Assembly (NCBI GenBank): GCA_947311115.1
Contig: CAMZKE010000126.1
Span: 1 to 38,232, forward strand
Reading direction: 5' to 3'
Length of the DNA: 38,232 nt
From: an uncultured Bacteroidales bacterium
GTDB taxonomy: Bacteria; Bacteroidota; Bacteroidia; Bacteroidales; JAFGXI01
Below are positions 3,246 to 32,801 of this stretch, one piece after another. The notes beneath the pieces are model-generated. The model was given only the letters and a program-made list of their open reading frames with translations, was not told the origin of the DNA and ran no database searches. Within the stretch, counting starts at the first letter, position 1, and the number at the start of each line of letters is the position of its first letter. The position numbers were made by a program, and so were the translations under genes.

Positions 3246-3638
3246 TTATTTTTCTAATTCTGAAGGTAAATATTCTTTGTTACCTATCATTATTTTATTA
3301 ATACCATTTTTTGAGAATAAGTATTCGTAATATTTCCAGTGATCAGCATATTTGTATAATTTAAGTTCTGCATTTCGTTCGTTATTTGCATTAAGCTCTG
3401 ATATTGTAAAGCTTTGAACACCTCTATAACTACTAATAGCTTTTTTTAGTTTAATAGCTTGACTTTCTGATTCTAAGCCGGAAATAATAAAATTGTAGTT
3501 TTTTTCAACTGTTTTATTTTGAAATTGATTTGTAAATTCTGATTTACTATCAAATTTAAAAATTACATTGTTATAGTTTTCTTGCGATATTGCTACAAAA
3601 GCTATAAATAATCCTACAAAAACTAATAAATTTTTCAT
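3246..3638 (-). CDS. Small secreted protein with possible heavy-metal-associated (ferredoxin-like) fold
   Basis: This 130-residue protein begins with a clear signal peptide (about residues 1-19, ending AISQ), so it is exported to the periplasm or beyond. The middle, about residues 48-80, has the rhythm of an HMA-type beta-alpha-beta unit: a strand, then SGL, a helix, then a GV followed by a strand. The metal-binding CxxC of true HMA domains is absent, so metal binding is not supported. The C-terminal 40 residues are rich in Tyr and Lys. It is the first gene of an apparent two-gene unit with the giant anchor-L protein 15 nt downstream, which suggests a joint role at the cell surface. No T9SS sorting domain is present. 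Function unknown; the HMA-like fold is an inference. Confidence 0.75.
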   Translation of the reverse strand: MKNLLVFVGLFIAFVAISQENYNNVIFKFDSKSEFTNQFQNKTVEKNYNFIISGLESESQAIKLKKAISSYRGVQSFTISELNANNERNAELKLYKYADHWKYYEYLFSKNGINKIMIGNKEYLPSELEK

Positions 3639-3785
3639 TTTTATTTTGTTTAGTTATGTGTTAACAAATTATAAGACAATTACTAACTACGTATAGTTGC
3701 CTGAGATTTACAATTTAAGAATAAAATAATAATTATTAAAATTTAATTATAGTTTTTATAATAACTATGTTATATATTATTGAAT

Positions 3786-24541: not shown

Positions 24542-25897
24542 TTATTCTTTAATAAACTTTATTGTTTCTACTCCAATTTTAATAAAGTAAATTCCACTTT
24601 TTAAATCAGAAATATCAATATTTGATATTAAATTATCAATAATTAATTTTTTCTGTGTTCTACCTGTAATATCAATAATTTCAGCATTTTCTTGTTTTTT
24701 TGTATTAAACATTATATGTAAATTATTTGTAGCAGGATTAGGATAAACTGTAAATTTATTTTTATTGTTAGTGGTATTAGTAATTATAGAACTAACAGAA
24801 TCGTACTCGTAGGCACCAATATCTGTATATAAACCGGAAAATGAACCCGAATAATTGGGGTCGCCCGCATCAATTGCAGGAGAGTTTGATGTTAGGTGTA
24901 AATCGAAATTTGCAGTATCAACAAATAAAGCTGTTGCAAAAATATTTGCTGTGCCGGGCAAAGTGTCGGTATTACTTAAACAATATGACATTGTAAGTGT
25001 AGAATTTGATTGTAAAGTGAAATCTTTATAAGTTGCTCCATTCATAATTGTATTTGAAACAATTAGTGTACCACCACTATTACTAGATGTTCCGTGATGT
25101 GGTTGTAAAGACCTTACAGATATATATATAGTATTGTGGTCTGCCGTAGTTGTAGCACCGTCGTGGCTTTGTATTCCACCATAACAGTTGTAAATTACAT
25201 TTCGTTCGGCATATACTGTTGACGATTCGCCCACAGAAATTCCAAAATCGGTATCAGTAATAATATTGTTATTTATAACAACATTATGTGAACTTGTGCC
25301 AATATCAACGCCATCATCAGGCCAATGGCGAATAATATTATTACTAATATTACCATAATTAATCCCGTCTGCATCAATAGCGTCAATTTTTCCACCGTTT
25401 TCGTCGCTTTCTAAAATAGAGTTTGTAATTATTACAGAGTCTGCATAATGTACGGCAATACCATCTTCACCAATAGTACCAATAACCGCAGAAATTCTTG
25501 AATTATTAATATTTATTGTACCATGACTGGCTGCAATTATTTTTCTGGGGTTTTGCAAAACTGTATAATTAAAAATAAGAGTGCCTGAATTTGTAGTAAT
25601 AGGTCCCCAAGAATCTGCACCTGAATTGGTTATAAGTGTTATGGAATCGTTTTCTTCGCCTATAAGTTTTAATGTTCCTGATACGTTAAAATATTTACCT
25701 TGGTTAAACATTATTGTACAACCTTTTTCAAACTGAACAGTAACTCCTGAGTTAATTGTAGGGTTGTTAGTAACTAAATACGGTGAATTTGCAACAGTTA
25801 AAAATGTATCGGTGTCAAAACTTGTAGGTAAAATAGTTTGAGCCGTAAGTAAATTGCTTAAAAATACAGTGCTGATTATAAATAAAAGATTTTTCAT
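24542..25897 (-). CDS. Secreted parallel beta-helix protein with choice-of-anchor Q and T9SS sorting domain
   Basis: 451 residues. Signal peptide 1-20 (ending LTAQ). About 70-335 is a right-handed parallel beta-helix: short Asn/Ile/Val-rich repeats such as GNISNNIIRHWPDDGVDIG, VINNNIITDTDFGISVG and ERNVIYNCYGGIQSHDG. A choice-of-anchor Q motif follows (SPAIDAGDPNYSG, then DIGAYEYD, about 342-368). A T9SS type A sorting domain ends the protein (about 380-451, TVYPNPATNN start, SGIYFIKIG near the end). Such helices bind or cut polysaccharides; no catalytic residues can be named here. Its ATG overlaps the last base of the CotH gene upstream, so the two are co-transcribed and probably translated in a coupled way. 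Confidence 0.9.
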   Translation of the reverse strand: MKNLLFIISTVFLSNLLTAQTILPTSFDTDTFLTVANSPYLVTNNPTINSGVTVQFEKGCTIMFNQGKYFNVSGTLKLIGEENDSITLITNSGADSWGPITTNSGTLIFNYTVLQNPRKIIAASHGTININNSRISAVIGTIGEDGIAVHYADSVIITNSILESDENGGKIDAIDADGINYGNISNNIIRHWPDDGVDIGTSSHNVVINNNIITDTDFGISVGESSTVYAERNVIYNCYGGIQSHDGATTTADHNTIYISVRSLQPHHGTSSNSGGTLIVSNTIMNGATYKDFTLQSNSTLTMSYCLSNTDTLPGTANIFATALFVDTANFDLHLTSNSPAIDAGDPNYSGSFSGLYTDIGAYEYDSVSSIITNTTNNKNKFTVYPNPATNNLHIMFNTKKQENAEIIDITGRTQKKLIIDNLISNIDISDLKSGIYFIKIGVETIKFIKE

Positions 25898-28800
25898 TAT
25901 TCTATAATTATTTTGTGAGTATAAACTTTATCATCAATATTTATTTTAAGGAAATACATGCCTTTTTCCAAACTAGAATTATTAGTTAATATATGTTGAC
26001 CTTTTTGTTGGTACAAGTTAGCCCAAGTTTCTATTTTTGAACCTTTTATGTTGTATAGTTCAATATTTACATATTGTTGCTTTGCTAAATTATATTCAAT
26101 ATTTACAGTTCCTTTTGATGGGTTTGGATATACAGATATTAAAGTAATATTATTTACCGAAGTTTCAACAATACTAGTTGTTCCGTTTACTGCACCCGGT
26201 GTTCCTCCGTTAACATATGATGCTCTCCAACTTTCGGCAAGTGTATTATCCATTGCAGGGCTAATAAGTTCAAGGCTCGGTCCAAAACCATTTGCTTGTG
26301 TAGGCCAAGGCGATTGCTCGTCGTAAACAACAGAATCTATTAATGTTCCGTAGTTACTGTAGAGTCTAATAAGTTCACCTGTATTTGATAATCCAAAACC
26401 ATTTGTGCCTGCACCAAAATCTCCATATTTATCGGCAGTAATATTAGTGTAAATAGAATTGAATGCAGTTAAAGCTCTTGTTAAAAGTATGTATTGTCCC
26501 GGAGCTACGCTACTTCCGGCAGGAATTAAAAACTCGTGAGTATTGTTAGCATCTTTAAATACCCAGTTTGATATATCAACAGTAAAATCATTAGGGTTGT
26601 ATAGCTCAATCCAATCGTTGCTATTCATTGTTGCAGATGCGTTGTACATTATTTCGTTAATTACTAAAGTATCGTAAATAAAACTAGCATCTTCTTCAAA
26701 GTAAGCTGTTAAATTGTATGTTCCTGAAAAATTAAGAGTAACTTGTTCTTGGTTTGGCAAATTAGAATCGCTCCAGCCTGTAAAAACATAACCAGGGTCA
26801 GCTATTGCAGTAATTTCAACAGGAACATTTTCAAAATAAATACCACTCCAAGGGTTAGTTGGTATGTTTATAGTACTTAAATGTAATTTGCCATTTCCAA
26901 CTACTGTTAAATTTATTGTGTCTGTTGCCGGTAACGAGAAATATGACAATATTTGACTTCTTACAGTATTTGGTCTGTTAGTTAAAAATAAATTTACTTG
27001 ATTTATATCGTTTTCCCATGTTGCCATAGTTTTACTTGGGTTCCAACGAGAAAGTTCGTTAGGCATTTCGGCATAAACAATTTGTTTTGTGGAGTCCATT
27101 TTGGCAATTGCAGTATCGGGTAAGAATAATGTATTCATTAAATCTGCACAACGGTTAATTAATTTATGTTTAAATAGGGTGTTTTGTATCATTTTTTGAG
27201 GCATAAAATTAGGCCATTTTTCATTGTATGTATATGCATATTCTGTAAATCCGTTCCACGATAAATTATCTAAAGACCTATCCATATCCCAAATAGTCCA
27301 ACGCCAACGGCCTTGCGGTGAGTTTTCTTTATATGCAAAACTTCCCCAAGTCCACCCTCTGTCCTGAGTAACATGTACATATGCTAACAAATTTATAAAA
27401 TTATCCATGTCAATCATATTTGATACTTGATAAAAATTTGCATCATCACTCCAATCTGCACTATTTATAAAATTCGTTAGATTATTCCATTCGGTCATTG
27501 AACCGTATTTAAGTTCCGGGCCTGTTTTTGTGTATCTTATTAAATCAAAATTCATTGTGCCAATATGGTCTCCAATTGAATATTCATTAATACTTTCTCT
27601 AATGTTATATACTCCCCAATACATTGTGTTAATAGTAAGTATAGCCCAATTTCCTCTTGATGCCCAGCCTCCGCTATAGCGATACATATCGTTTGCAAAA
27701 GGGTCTCTAATTAGTGTTCCTCCTGATGTTGTAATATCATCATCATAACCAGAACGTAATACTATATTTTCGAAACGGGTAACAGGAGAATTTTCGAATA
27801 ATGGATAATGTAATTTGTTTTGACCGTATTTGCTTTCATAAAACAATCGAAATGCTTTTTTTGCCATTCCTACAGAGTTTCCTCCTTGTATTCTAATTCC
27901 TGCGTTTGATGCAAACTCTAAATTGCCGTTTTTAAAATAATGAGGCTGGCAAAAACGTTGCCATTCGTCACCTGTATTCCAAGGGTGTGAGTATATCCCA
28001 ATTGCTCCCCACATATTTAAAGAGTCAATAATAATAGACATAACAGGTAAATTATGTACTTCATCAATAAAATAAATATTACTTGCCGGACGGCTTAACA
28101 TAAGTCCTGTATTTCCTGAAACAGCTCTAATAACTGTTGTTTGTGTAATGGTTATTGGTGAGGTATATACCAAAGAATTTCTTGAAGGGTCATCTCCATC
28201 AAGTGTATAATAAATTGTATCGTTATTGATATTTGGAATTAATGAAATTGTTTGTGTTCCTTGATAGCTTCCTCCAGGTATTGAAAATGTAGGCTCTAGG
28301 GCTACTCCTGAATATCCTTGTGTTGTGTTTTCTGCATTTGGTGTTGGGGTGGGGAATAAGTTGTTTGTAGTACTTCCATTAGGATAACGCCCGTAGCTGA
28401 CATCTTCAAATTGATTATCAAAACTTATTGAATCTACAAGCTGAAGTGTTGCATTGTATAAGCCAACTTCTTCGCCTGAGCCCGATAGTTTAAAATTGGT
28501 ATGAAGTTTTCCTTGTAAAACTTCATTATCTGCCCAAAATAAAATGTATTCGCCAGGATTAAGCGATATATTTGTGTCAATTAAAAATAAATTTGGAACT
28601 AAAAAGTTATCGGTTAAGTACATTCCTGTTAAGCTAACTGTTGATGAGCCGTAATTATATAATTCAATATAATCATCAAAATCGCCATTGTTGTCGGTAA
28701 TAATGGTGGAATTTATAGCACTTATCTCGTTAATACGTATTGTTTGCGAAAAAATATTGGGTGAAATAATTATTAGTAGTAGAAATAAATAGTTTCTCAT
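25897..28800 (-). CDS. CotH-kinase-family protein with two lamin-tail domains and T9SS sorting domain (paralogue A)
   Basis: 967 residues from the ATG at 28800. A GTG at 28827 would add nine residues, but it falls in a conserved leader and is rejected. Signal peptide 1-19 (ending NIFSQ); lamin-tail domain about 22-165 (INEISA, YIELYNYG); chitobiase C-terminal-type module about 167-240 (YYTLDGDDPS); CotH domain about 255-600 with YNIRES and WDMDRSLD (about 503); an InlB-like B repeat about 637-703 (PGYVFTGWSD); a second lamin-tail domain about 713-858 (INEIMYN, DWIELYNP); T9SS sorting domain about 888-967 (SVYPNPSKG). CotH proteins are protein kinases in Bacillus spore coats; here the protein is predicted to be outside the cell. 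The segment HVTQD (about 478) keeps the Asp, but the usual following Asn seems missing. Confidence 0.93.
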   Translation of the reverse strand: MRNYLFLLLIIISPNIFSQTIRINEISAINSTIITDNNGDFDDYIELYNYGSSTVSLTGMYLTDNFLVPNLFLIDTNISLNPGEYILFWADNEVLQGKLHTNFKLSGSGEEVGLYNATLQLVDSISFDNQFEDVSYGRYPNGSTTNNLFPTPTPNAENTTQGYSGVALEPTFSIPGGSYQGTQTISLIPNINNDTIYYTLDGDDPSRNSLVYTSPITITQTTVIRAVSGNTGLMLSRPASNIYFIDEVHNLPVMSIIIDSLNMWGAIGIYSHPWNTGDEWQRFCQPHYFKNGNLEFASNAGIRIQGGNSVGMAKKAFRLFYESKYGQNKLHYPLFENSPVTRFENIVLRSGYDDDITTSGGTLIRDPFANDMYRYSGGWASRGNWAILTINTMYWGVYNIRESINEYSIGDHIGTMNFDLIRYTKTGPELKYGSMTEWNNLTNFINSADWSDDANFYQVSNMIDMDNFINLLAYVHVTQDRGWTWGSFAYKENSPQGRWRWTIWDMDRSLDNLSWNGFTEYAYTYNEKWPNFMPQKMIQNTLFKHKLINRCADLMNTLFLPDTAIAKMDSTKQIVYAEMPNELSRWNPSKTMATWENDINQVNLFLTNRPNTVRSQILSYFSLPATDTINLTVVGNGKLHLSTINIPTNPWSGIYFENVPVEITAIADPGYVFTGWSDSNLPNQEQVTLNFSGTYNLTAYFEEDASFIYDTLVINEIMYNASATMNSNDWIELYNPNDFTVDISNWVFKDANNTHEFLIPAGSSVAPGQYILLTRALTAFNSIYTNITADKYGDFGAGTNGFGLSNTGELIRLYSNYGTLIDSVVYDEQSPWPTQANGFGPSLELISPAMDNTLAESWRASYVNGGTPGAVNGTTSIVETSVNNITLISVYPNPSKGTVNIEYNLAKQQYVNIELYNIKGSKIETWANLYQQKGQHILTNNSSLEKGMYFLKINIDDKVYTHKIIIE

Positions 28801-28843
28801 ATAAATATATTTTTTTATTATAGACACTTTTTTTAGTGAAAAG

Positions 28844-28875
28844 TTGCTTTAGGTCAAACAAAGTTAGTAATTTTA
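28844..28875 (+). promoter_or_regulatory. Possible promoter of the GNAT/FemAB-like gene
   Basis: TTG at 28844-28846, 21-nt spacer and TAATTTTA at 28868-28875 (last base off consensus), six nt before the ATG. It interleaves with the divergent CotH-A promoter. Confidence 0.4.
28859..28866 (-). promoter_or_regulatory. -7 element and conserved leader of CotH paralogue A
   Basis: TAACTTTG on the minus strand. Downstream (28847 to 28820) come GCAACT and GTGTCTAT in the same order as in the leader of paralogue B. The ATG is 58 nt after the box. Confidence 0.6.
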
Positions 28876-28881
28876 TCGAGA

Positions 28882-29751
28882 ATGTTAAAATACCTTGAAA
28901 ATAAAAATATTGATAAAGTAAAATGGGATTTGTTAATTGCCAATTCGGTTAATGGTTTTGTGTATTCAACAAGTAATTATTTAGATATTGTTTGCGAAAA
29001 TTGGGACGCATTAATTTATGGTGATTACCAGGCTATTATGCCATTGCCATACAAAAAGAAATTTGGTGTAAAATACATAATTCAACCTGATTTTTCGCAA
29101 CAATTAGGTGTTGTTTATATTAATAAACCAGATGATGATGTAATAAATAAATTTACGGTTTTCTTAAAAAACAGTTTTCTTTATTTTGCATTAAACTTAA
29201 ATTTTGATAACAATATTAATAATGTGAAATTTATTGATAAAACTAATTTAATATTAGATTTGAATAATAGTTTCGATGAAATTTCAAAGAATTTTAGTAA
29301 AAATACAAAACGTAACATAAATAAATCTAAGAAATATGGATTTGAAATAACGGTTAATAAAGAAATTAGCAGGTTTATTAATTTTTTCAAATCTAATTTA
29401 AAAGAAGAGGTGCCGGAAGAAACAATAAATATTTTAAAAAATATTTTAGATTATTCTGTTAAATATCAAATAGGCGAAATTTATTCAGTAAAAAAAGGTG
29501 ACGAACTTTTAGCCTCAGTTTTTATCTTAACATCGTTTAATCGCTATATATACTTGGCTGCAACTTCTAATGCTAAAGGAAAAGAGTTACGTGCTATGTT
29601 CTTTTTGTTAAATAGTTTTATCGAAGATAATTGTAATTCTAGTAAAATATTAGATTTTGAAGGCTCTGATGTTGAGGGAGTAAAACGATTTTATAAAGGG
29701 TTTGGTGCTATAGAACAAAACTATAAACATATTTTTAAAAAGATATTTTAA
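28882..29751 (+). CDS. GNAT-fold acyltransferase, BioF2/FemAB-like
   Basis: 289 residues, no signal peptide, so cytosolic. The pattern is that of the BioF2-like/FemAB acyltransferases: a first, degenerate GNAT half (about 1-130, with GDYQAIMPLPYKKKFGVKY and FSQQLGVVY), a central basic segment NTKRNINKSKKYGFEI (about 141-156), and a second half with IGEIYSVKKGDELLASVFIL (about 195-214) and the closing FEGSDVEGVKRFYKGFGA (about 258-275). Relatives attach amino acids or acyl groups to peptidoglycan precursors, lipids or surface polysaccharides. The substrate here is unknown. It is flanked by two inverted CotH paralogues, each with its own promoter, so it may be a bystander or a functional partner. 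Confidence 0.82.
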   Translation: MLKYLENKNIDKVKWDLLIANSVNGFVYSTSNYLDIVCENWDALIYGDYQAIMPLPYKKKFGVKYIIQPDFSQQLGVVYINKPDDDVINKFTVFLKNSFLYFALNLNFDNNINNVKFIDKTNLILDLNNSFDEISKNFSKNTKRNINKSKKYGFEITVNKEISRFINFFKSNLKEEVPEETINILKNILDYSVKYQIGEIYSVKKGDELLASVFILTSFNRYIYLAATSNAKGKELRAMFFLLNSFIEDNCNSSKILDFEGSDVEGVKRFYKGFGAIEQNYKHIFKKIF

Positions 29752-29752
29752 T

Positions 29753-29798
29753 TATCTTTGTAGTTTATAGGCAACTAATTTTTACCTAAAGTGTCTAT
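29753..29798 (+). promoter_or_regulatory. -7 element and conserved leader of CotH paralogue B
   Basis: TATCTTTG at 29753-29760 directly follows the acyltransferase stop. Next come GCAACT (29771-29776) and GTGTCTAT (29791-29798), the same order and near-equal spacing as in paralogue A. The ATG is 59 nt after the box. Confidence 0.6.
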
Positions 29799-29819
29799 TT
29801 ATAAATTATACTGTATAAA

Positions 29820-32801
29820 ATGAAAAAAATATTAGCAATTTTATTATTAGTTACCTCTGTAATTACTTATTCGCAAACTAATAACAATGTTTATGAAGAA
29901 GGCTATAATACAATAACAGGTATAGATACAACAGGGTTTTATCTAAATAAAAATTATAAATCAGTAAATATATCATATACGTTAAAAATAAATGAGATTT
30001 GTGCAAACAACGGTTCAACTTATGCCGATGAGTTTGGAGAGTACGATGACTGGGTTGAGTTATATAATTATGGAACAGAAGATATTGATTTAAAAGATTT
30101 GTATTTCTCAGATAACATTAACGAACCATTAAAATTTCAACTTGACTCGTCAATAATTATAACGGCAGGCGGTTTTGTTGTGCTTTGGGCTGATGAGCAA
30201 CCACAACAAGGACGGTATCATTTAAATTTTAAACTATCATCGTCAGGAGAAAGTTTTTTAATTTACGAGCCAAGTATAGGGGTTTTAGATTTGATGAATT
30301 TTGATAATCAGAATTATGACAATACTTATGGCTGCCAGCCTGATGGAAGTACAAATTTGAATTATTTTACAACTGCTACCCCAAATTCTTCAAATACAGC
30401 TACAGGTTTGTTAGATATAGTGCCGGAACCTACAATTACTGTAAATACAGGGTTTTACACCTCGACGCAAACGGTATCGATAAATGAATCTATATCTGGC
30501 ACTGATATATATTATACTACTAATGGAGCAGAACCAACTACAAATTCGTTTTTGTATTCATCAGCAATTACTATTGATACAAATACAATTATACGAGCTA
30601 AAGCGTTTAAAGCTAACTATATACCGAGTTCAGTTGCAACAAAAACATATATTTTTAATGAAGAATCATCAATACCTGTATTGTTTGTAACATCAACTAA
30701 CTCAAATATTTTTCAATCATATGATACACCTGTACACTCTGAGTTAATTGATGAAGATGGTACATCAGTTTTTTCAATAAATGCAGGAAGTCAGTTACAT
30801 GGAGATAATAGTGCTGTACAGAAAAGTTTTAAACTATTTTTTAGGTCAATGTACGGAGCAAATTCGGTAAATAAACAATTGTTTGATAATAAAGATATAA
30901 CACATTTTAAAAGATTAATTTTTAGAGCAGCAGGTAACGATGGAATGGTTACAGCTTCATCGGACAGAGCACATATGCGTGATGGTATAAATGCAACTAT
31001 GGCTATTAAATCTAATTTAAAATTTAAATCATCAGCATATAAAGCTGTTAACGTATATTTGAATGGCGAATATCGTGGTATTTTTAATATGCGAGAACGT
31101 ATAGATAAATACTTTATTGAAGATAATTATGATTACGACGATGATTTGCCTCGTAATATGATTGAGTATGCTTTTGGATATTCAGGTAATTTACATGTTA
31201 TTGCCGGCGAATGGAGCGATTTTTCTGACACTCATCATTATTGCGAAGACAATGATTTGTCAATTCAATCTAATTATGATTATGTGGCTGAAAGATTTGA
31301 TATAGAGGATTTTACTGATTATTGGATATTTGAAACATATATAGGTAATTTCGATTGGCTTACTAATAATATGTTTTTTTGGAGACCTGATGTTCCGAAC
31401 GGAAAATATAGATGGATATTATGGGATACCGACCATGGAATAGGCTTACCTTATAGTAGTTATGGAAATCCTGAATGGAATACTTTAGAATGGGCAACAA
31501 GTACTTGGAGTGGTCGCCCTTGGGATGGAGCCAGAACTAGAATAATAAGAAATTTATTAGAAAATGATGATTATAAGTATTATTTTATTACTCGTTATGC
31601 CGACTTGATAAATAAATATTTTGGAAGCGGTATGTTTACAAATATTGTTGATTCGCTTGAAGATGTTATTGAAGATGAAATTCCAAAACAAATTGCACGT
31701 TGGGGGGTTAGCACAGAAAATTCGTGGGAAGAATCGTTTAATACTATTAGAGATTATATAACTGAGCGACCTGAGAATGTAAGAGAGCATATTAAAGGTT
31801 TATATTCGCTTGAAGATATGTACACATTGCAATTAGATGTATATCCCGAAAATTCGGGCAAATTTAATTTGAATACAATTAGTGTAGATGGAGAATTCTC
31901 TTGGACAGGAAAATATTACGAGAATATGAAAATAACTATAGAAGCAATTCCGATGCCGGGATATCAGTTTGTTGGTTGGCAAAATTCTTTAGAAACAGCA
32001 CAAGAAATAGAAATATATCCTCACGGAAATACAACTGTAGTTGCTCTATTTGAACCTGTTAATTATGATGATTATCCTGTTGTTTTTAATGAAATAAGTT
32101 ATAATCAAGACAATACTTATGCTTCCGGCGATTGGATTGAACTTTATAATAGGTCTGATAATGATGTAGATATTTCCGGTTGGGAGTTTAAAGATAGCGA
32201 TGATAATCATGTATATACATTTCCTCAGAATACAATTTTAGAGGAGGAAGAATATTTGGTTGTATGTTCAAACGAGATTTTGTTTACATCAACTTACCCA
32301 AATGTTGAGAATTATTTAGCCGAATTTAATTTTGGATTAAGCGGAAATGGCGAGTTATTAAGATTGTACAATGATACCATAATTATTGATTCTGTTTTGT
32401 ACGATGATACAGCTCCTTGGCCAACAGCAGCTGATGGGAATGGTCCAACATTAGAGCTTATTAATACAAATTATAATAACGATTTTGGCGAAAATTGGCA
32501 AGCATCCTACGTTGATGGAGGTACTCCGGGAGAGGAAAGTAGCCATTTAGTTAGTAATATAAATAATTATTCTGATAATAATATTTCAATTTATCCAAAC
32601 CCTACTTATAACAAAGTTAATATTTCATTAAACGAAAACTCTGAAATAATTATTTTTGATACTAATGGCAAAATGTATTTGGCAAAAAAAATAAAAAAAG
32701 GAAAAAATATTGTTGATTTGTCTTTGTACAAGCAAGGAATTTATTTTGTTAGAATAATCACAGCAGATAACATTATAACTAAAAAGATTGTTAAACTTTA
32801 G
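29820..32801 (+). CDS. CotH-kinase-family protein with two lamin-tail domains and T9SS sorting domain (paralogue B)
   Basis: 993 residues with the same domain order as paralogue A. Signal peptide 1-19 (ending ITYSQ); lamin-tail domain about 56-195 (KINEICANNG, DDWVELYNYG); chitobiase-type module about 203-275 (YYTTNGAEPT); CotH domain about 285-640; InlB-like B repeat about 670-745 (PGYQFVGWQNS); second lamin-tail domain about 754-900 (FNEISYNQ, DWIELYNRS); T9SS sorting domain about 918-993 (SIYPNPTYN, QGIYFVRI). The CotH part shows FNMRERIDKYF, GNFDWLTNNMFFW (about 508-520) with Asp and following Asn, and LWDTDHG (about 534-540), so the kinase motifs look more complete than in A. It is predicted to be secreted. 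The transketolase gene starts 3 nt after its stop. Confidence 0.93.
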   Translation: MKKILAILLLVTSVITYSQTNNNVYEEGYNTITGIDTTGFYLNKNYKSVNISYTLKINEICANNGSTYADEFGEYDDWVELYNYGTEDIDLKDLYFSDNINEPLKFQLDSSIIITAGGFVVLWADEQPQQGRYHLNFKLSSSGESFLIYEPSIGVLDLMNFDNQNYDNTYGCQPDGSTNLNYFTTATPNSSNTATGLLDIVPEPTITVNTGFYTSTQTVSINESISGTDIYYTTNGAEPTTNSFLYSSAITIDTNTIIRAKAFKANYIPSSVATKTYIFNEESSIPVLFVTSTNSNIFQSYDTPVHSELIDEDGTSVFSINAGSQLHGDNSAVQKSFKLFFRSMYGANSVNKQLFDNKDITHFKRLIFRAAGNDGMVTASSDRAHMRDGINATMAIKSNLKFKSSAYKAVNVYLNGEYRGIFNMRERIDKYFIEDNYDYDDDLPRNMIEYAFGYSGNLHVIAGEWSDFSDTHHYCEDNDLSIQSNYDYVAERFDIEDFTDYWIFETYIGNFDWLTNNMFFWRPDVPNGKYRWILWDTDHGIGLPYSSYGNPEWNTLEWATSTWSGRPWDGARTRIIRNLLENDDYKYYFITRYADLINKYFGSGMFTNIVDSLEDVIEDEIPKQIARWGVSTENSWEESFNTIRDYITERPENVREHIKGLYSLEDMYTLQLDVYPENSGKFNLNTISVDGEFSWTGKYYENMKITIEAIPMPGYQFVGWQNSLETAQEIEIYPHGNTTVVALFEPVNYDDYPVVFNEISYNQDNTYASGDWIELYNRSDNDVDISGWEFKDSDDNHVYTFPQNTILEEEEYLVVCSNEILFTSTYPNVENYLAEFNFGLSGNGELLRLYNDTIIIDSVLYDDTAPWPTAADGNGPTLELINTNYNNDFGENWQASYVDGGTPGEESSHLVSNINNYSDNNISIYPNPTYNKVNISLNENSEIIIFDTNGKMYLAKKIKKGKNIVDLSLYKQGIYFVRIITADNIITKKIVKL

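Follow-up and report, generated by a model that had tools for sequence, protein, structure and literature searches.

The window analysed here, a 38,232-nt stretch of the genome of an uncultured Bacteroidales bacterium for which no plasmid match was found, contains two large CotH genes. CotH-A encodes a 967-aa protein on the minus strand (25897-28800) with a signal peptide, assigned by eye, and CHB_HEX/Fn3_assoc, CotH kinase-like and LTD domains and a T9SS type A sorting tail (Pfam); CotH-B encodes a 993-aa protein with the same domain order on the plus strand (29820-32801). The two are 35% identical paralogues and the sole full-length pair in the genome. Between them lies an acyltransferase-like ORF (28882-29751, plus strand) whose match to Acetyltransf_6 falls just under the cut-off. 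A preliminary description of this DNA had placed the paralogues in opposite directions around a single acyltransferase gene, and the coordinates and strands bear this out.

The same string of elements precedes both CotH genes. Upstream of CotH-A (minus strand, ATG at 28800) it consists of TAACTTTG, 11 nt, GCAACT, 14 nt and GTGTCTAT, with the ATG 27 nt from the first base of GTGTCTAT and 58 nt from where the -7 box ends; upstream of CotH-B (plus strand, ATG at 29820) it consists of TATCTTTG, 10 nt, GCAACT, 14 nt and GTGTCTAT, with corresponding distances of 29 nt and 59 nt. The string had been reported in this form, and its spacings of 27/29 and 58/59 nt were reproduced. A further regularity, absent from that account, is that both genes have exactly 17 nt between GCAAC and GTC. 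We read these elements as a putative ECF sigma promoter for each gene: that of CotH-A spans 28820-28847 on the minus strand (-35 GCAACT at 28847-28842, 16-nt spacer, -10 GTCTAT at 28825-28820), and that of CotH-B spans 29771-29798 on the plus strand (-35 GCAACT at 29771-29776, 16-nt spacer, -10 GTCTAT at 29793-29798). The earlier statement that the two genes share a promoter is incorrect: there is one copy per gene, and the copies lie approximately 950 bp apart on either side of the acyltransferase-like ORF, which has no ECF-type site upstream. The boxes TAACTTTG (28859-28866, minus strand) and TATCTTTG (29753-29760, plus strand), upstream of the respective ECF promoters, resemble the sigma-A -7 element and possibly belong to tandem promoters; no -33 TTG element was seen by eye near the CotH-A box.

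A genome search had been proposed as a check on the string. In the 3.53-Mb genome GCAACT-N8..20-GTGTCTAT matched only at the two CotH sites, the reversed pattern gave no match, and the 11-mer AAAGTGTCTAT was confined to the same two places. Looser forms of the motif were more widespread. Over the whole genome GCAAC-N16..18-GTCTA had 22 matches against 8 for the reversed control and GCAAC-N15..17-CGTC had 25 against 13, and the union of both comprised 45 distinct places, 20 inside ORFs and 25 outside. Since the 20 matches within ORFs are at about the background level given by the reversed-control total of 21, the excess of sites is non-coding. With a non-coding share of approximately 6% (outside ORFs of at least 100 aa, as determined for the window), the binomial P for 25 of 45 is 1e-18, or 4e-10 if 15% non-coding is assumed, values that are indicative because the pattern widths were picked after the first matches had been inspected. 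The gap between GCAAC and GTC among the 25 tabulated non-coding sites was 17 nt in 9 and 18 nt in 16, and never 16 nt. Most of these sites have a same-strand start codon 14-120 nt downstream, and the motif is asymmetric and directed at the gene, mostly 20-50 nt from the start codon. The sites thus combine what is expected of ECF promoters, namely a -35 with an AAC core, a GTC or CGTC -10, a fixed spacer of approximately 16 nt and a position just upstream of genes along the direction of transcription. In the 45 nt upstream of each of these 25 sites, TAnnTTTG boxes numbered seven in all on the sense strand and one on the antisense strand, and may represent a second, upstream sigma-A promoter in a tandem sigma-A/ECF arrangement.

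The preliminary description did not mention another putative ECF promoter, the third in the window, which reads GCAAC-N18-GTC and lies at 3675-3700 on the minus strand; the ATG 36 nt downstream opens a 130-aa secreted-type ORF (3246-3638, minus strand). Not every T9SS cargo gene has such a site, as a gingipain-like C25 gene and a beta-helix gene in the window are without one. Genome-wide, the genes downstream of non-coding sites encode mostly secreted proteins, with signal peptides assigned by eye, and 9 of approximately 21 carry a T9SS sorting domain. Against approximately 120 PF18962 (type A) tails in the genome, the eight type A tails among the downstream genes correspond to a P of approximately 1e-6, again an indicative value. 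A C10 peptidase, an M43 peptidase, a lectin/PKD protein and beta-helix, fn3 and PCMD proteins are among the products with type A or type B tails; the remainder include several small secreted proteins that have no Pfam match and two lipoprotein-like ORFs. Two small secreted-type proteins behind ECF-type sites (L091:1268-1699 and L093:2228-2629), likewise with no Pfam match, both contain GNTGK near the C-terminus. A separate observation concerns L092:2210-2330 (G000:C49), where GCAACC-N18-GTCTAT has no ORF close behind it and a terminator-like hairpin follows approximately 60 nt downstream; it is possible that this site drives a small RNA of roughly 80 nt, for which no Rfam match was obtained.

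The motif also precedes genes for sigma factors. Of 15 region-4 matches in the genome, 11 were scanned as sigma-factor genes, and four of these (L030, L032, L034 and L035) are preceded by a site at a distance of 38-48 nt from the first ATG, two as exact and two as near matches; the other seven had none, and antisense scans of all 11 were empty. The boxes read GCAACC..CGTCA before the sigma genes on contigs C26 and C46, ACAACT..GTCT before that on C121 and GTAACT..CGTCA before that on C74, and their presence before these ECF genes implies autoregulation. The sigma factors of C26, C46 and C121 form the trio that is most alike, with mutual identities of 36-49%. As the -10 of the CotH genes is TGTCTAT and that of two sigma genes CGTCAAT, more than one sigma factor may be involved. 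Each gene of the trio is followed by one for a membrane-spanning protein. The partners of the C46 sigma (412 aa; L104 / L034:1694-2929) and the C121 sigma (454 aa; L035:48-1409) consist of a short N-terminal region, one hydrophobic segment, a low-complexity stretch, a PKD domain and a type B T9SS sorting domain, with both TIGR04131 and CHU_C above cut-off. In the partner of the C26 sigma (570 aa; L102:3636-5345), a hydrophobic segment is accompanied by a tether rich in Asn, and the C-terminus weakly matches an OMP beta-barrel (E 7e-5, under cut-off). No model recognised an anti-sigma domain in the three partners; they are probably anti-sigma factors.

The preliminary description had suggested aligning CotH leaders from related genomes, and the regions upstream of CotH homologues elsewhere were searched for the motif: its strict form was present within 250 nt upstream of none of approximately 68 CotH homologues with readable upstream sequence, mostly from Bacteroidota, so the motif marks a regulon and not CotH. 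No homologue of CotH-A or CotH-B suitable for orthologous footprinting was found at E<=1e-60 in five other genomes of the family. Within the same family, GCAAC-N16..17-GTCTA occurs before secreted-type genes in three genomes (G001, G003 and G004), and the congener G002 (L023) has a single GCAACT..GTGTCTAT match with a shorter gap of 6 nt and without a clear ORF starting behind it. A search of 80 genomes from the order for the strict form GCAACT-N16-GTCTA gave no excess over the reversed control, which argues that the exact code is local.

Three other explanations of the string were weighed. The preliminary description had taken it for a transcribed leader of approximately 55 nt, initiated from the TAnnTTTG promoter and serving as the target of an RNA-binding protein or sRNA. 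In both CotH genes TAnnTTTG lies 10-11 nt ahead of GCAACT, in agreement with such a leader, as is the sense-strand excess of these boxes (7 vs 1), from which it follows that longer transcripts may exist. However, the spacing of the string is rigid and promoter-like, the string recurs before unrelated genes including those of sigma factors, and CotH homologues elsewhere do not have it; moreover, the two CotH leaders fold no better than shuffled sequences (z of -0.15 and 0.51) and gave no Rfam match (L002). The shuffle folds, the lack of an Rfam match and the result from the homologues together speak against a structured, conserved CotH mRNA leader, and we regard a bound leader as highly improbable. 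What is supported of the original prediction is the common regulator; its action on a leader through an RNA-binding protein or sRNA is not, given the promoter geometry, the unrelated targets, the lack of the motif at CotH homologues elsewhere and the absence of a significant fold.

Only slightly better placed, and still very unlikely, is a conventional transcription factor that would bind GCAACT and GTGTCTAT as half-sites and act on a sigma-A promoter at TAnnTTTG. A bipartite motif is compatible with a regulator of this kind and the TAnnTTTG spacing is similar in the CotH pair, but other sites do not preserve this spacing, the motif is asymmetric and aimed at the gene at its characteristic short distance, and it stands before ECF sigma genes. 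We consider it hardly credible that the string is a remnant of an ancient CotH duplication with no shared regulation: CotH-A and CotH-B are indeed paralogues and AAAGTGTCTAT is unique to the pair, yet identical -35 and -10 boxes, with different spacers between them, stand before two genes whose products have drifted apart to 35% identity, and the same boxes precede non-homologous genes.

The string is most likely two copies of a stress-type (ECF sigma) promoter that is also found before other secreted surface proteins and sigma genes. We assign a probability of roughly 0.87 to the whole of this explanation, which comprises an own ECF promoter for each CotH gene, a regulon of secreted proteins and T9SS cargo, sigma autoregulation and release from an anti-sigma factor. 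Motif, spacing, placement, downstream genes and sigma operons are direct readings of the genome, and on them we build a model that supplies the pairing of sigma factors with sites, the start sites, the anti-sigma role and the signal. Each CotH gene would be transcribed from its own GCAACT, 16-nt spacer, GTCTAT promoter, probably starting a few bases past the -10 and leaving some 13-18 nt as the 5′ UTR. By the logic of ECF promoters, transcripts are predicted to begin a few nt after GTCTAT, the outcome that the preliminary description itself had named as counting against a leader; with a start downstream of the -10, the conserved string would be mostly promoter DNA outside the mRNA. In the regulon, secreted and cell-surface proteins, often T9SS cargo, would be joined by the ECF genes of C26, C46, C121 and C74. 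An envelope signal would inactivate the anti-sigma factor, and the freed sigma factor would co-induce the surface proteins. For a bacterium of the Bacteroidota that has been little studied, the analysis provides a concrete promoter code and a list of targets of an ECF regulon in which T9SS cargo is abundant.

Related arrangements are known in other bacteria. In Flavobacterium psychrophilum the ECF-type motif SM6, with a CGT -10, lies on start sites mapped by 5′-end RNA-seq; besides T9SS genes it precedes a putative regulatory RNA and an operon for an ECF/anti-sigma pair, and it responds to low nutrients (PMC9723704). SM6 resembles the CotH-type sites, by description and not base by base, in being an ECF-type motif associated with T9SS and ECF sigma genes, whereas its named T9SS targets are machinery genes and T9SS cargo and other secreted proteins predominate among those identified here. 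SigP of Porphyromonas gingivalis controls T9SS genes and its own gene (PMC7712824), and the PorXY-SigP system is thus alike in placing an ECF sigma over T9SS-related genes and its own gene (PMC4800418, PMC7712824). It differs in that SigP acts with PorX, its targets are machinery genes and its published motif reads differently (PMC4800418, PMC7712824): the consensus, C(T)AAA(G/C/T)A(T)A(C)T(A/G)A (PMC4800418), does not, as published, include GCAAC or GTC boxes. At the level of the promoter, RpoE (-35 GGAACTT, -10 TCAAA) and SigX of Bacillus subtilis (TGTAAC, CGWC) have AAC-containing -35 elements and TC- or CGWC-type -10 elements like those described here, and a spacer of 16-17 bp is reported for SigAb promoters (PMC12153292); the bacteria and targets of RpoE and SigX are different.

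The closest parallel to the partner proteins is the Dma/Das system of Bacteroides thetaiotaomicron, in which the anti-sigma factors are dual membrane-spanning and Dma is paired with ECF21 sigma factors (PMC13088901). Dma combines an N-terminal anti-sigma domain, a TM helix, a disordered tether and a C-terminal beta-barrel (PMC13088901). The partners of C26, C46 and C121, each next to an ECF gene, have a Dma-like layout: a short cytoplasmic portion at the N-terminus is followed by a single TM helix and a long low-complexity tether that leads to an envelope domain at the C-terminus. The sigma operons suggest a way in which secretion status could be sensed, via a sorting domain on the anti-sigma factor. 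More tentatively, and with the balance of probability somewhat against it, the regulon may be run by ECF sigmas whose anti-sigma partners are anchored by the type B T9SS domain and not by a Dma beta-barrel, the cell reading the state of the T9SS and adjusting its cargo, both CotH proteins included. Among the papers listed by a literature search that reached a minority of subscription papers, none was found to describe an anti-sigma factor with a T9SS sorting domain. Where Dma ends in a beta-barrel, the C46 and C121 partners end in PKD and type B T9SS sorting domains, and the C26 partner comes closer to Dma at its C-terminus only through its weak OMP beta-barrel match.
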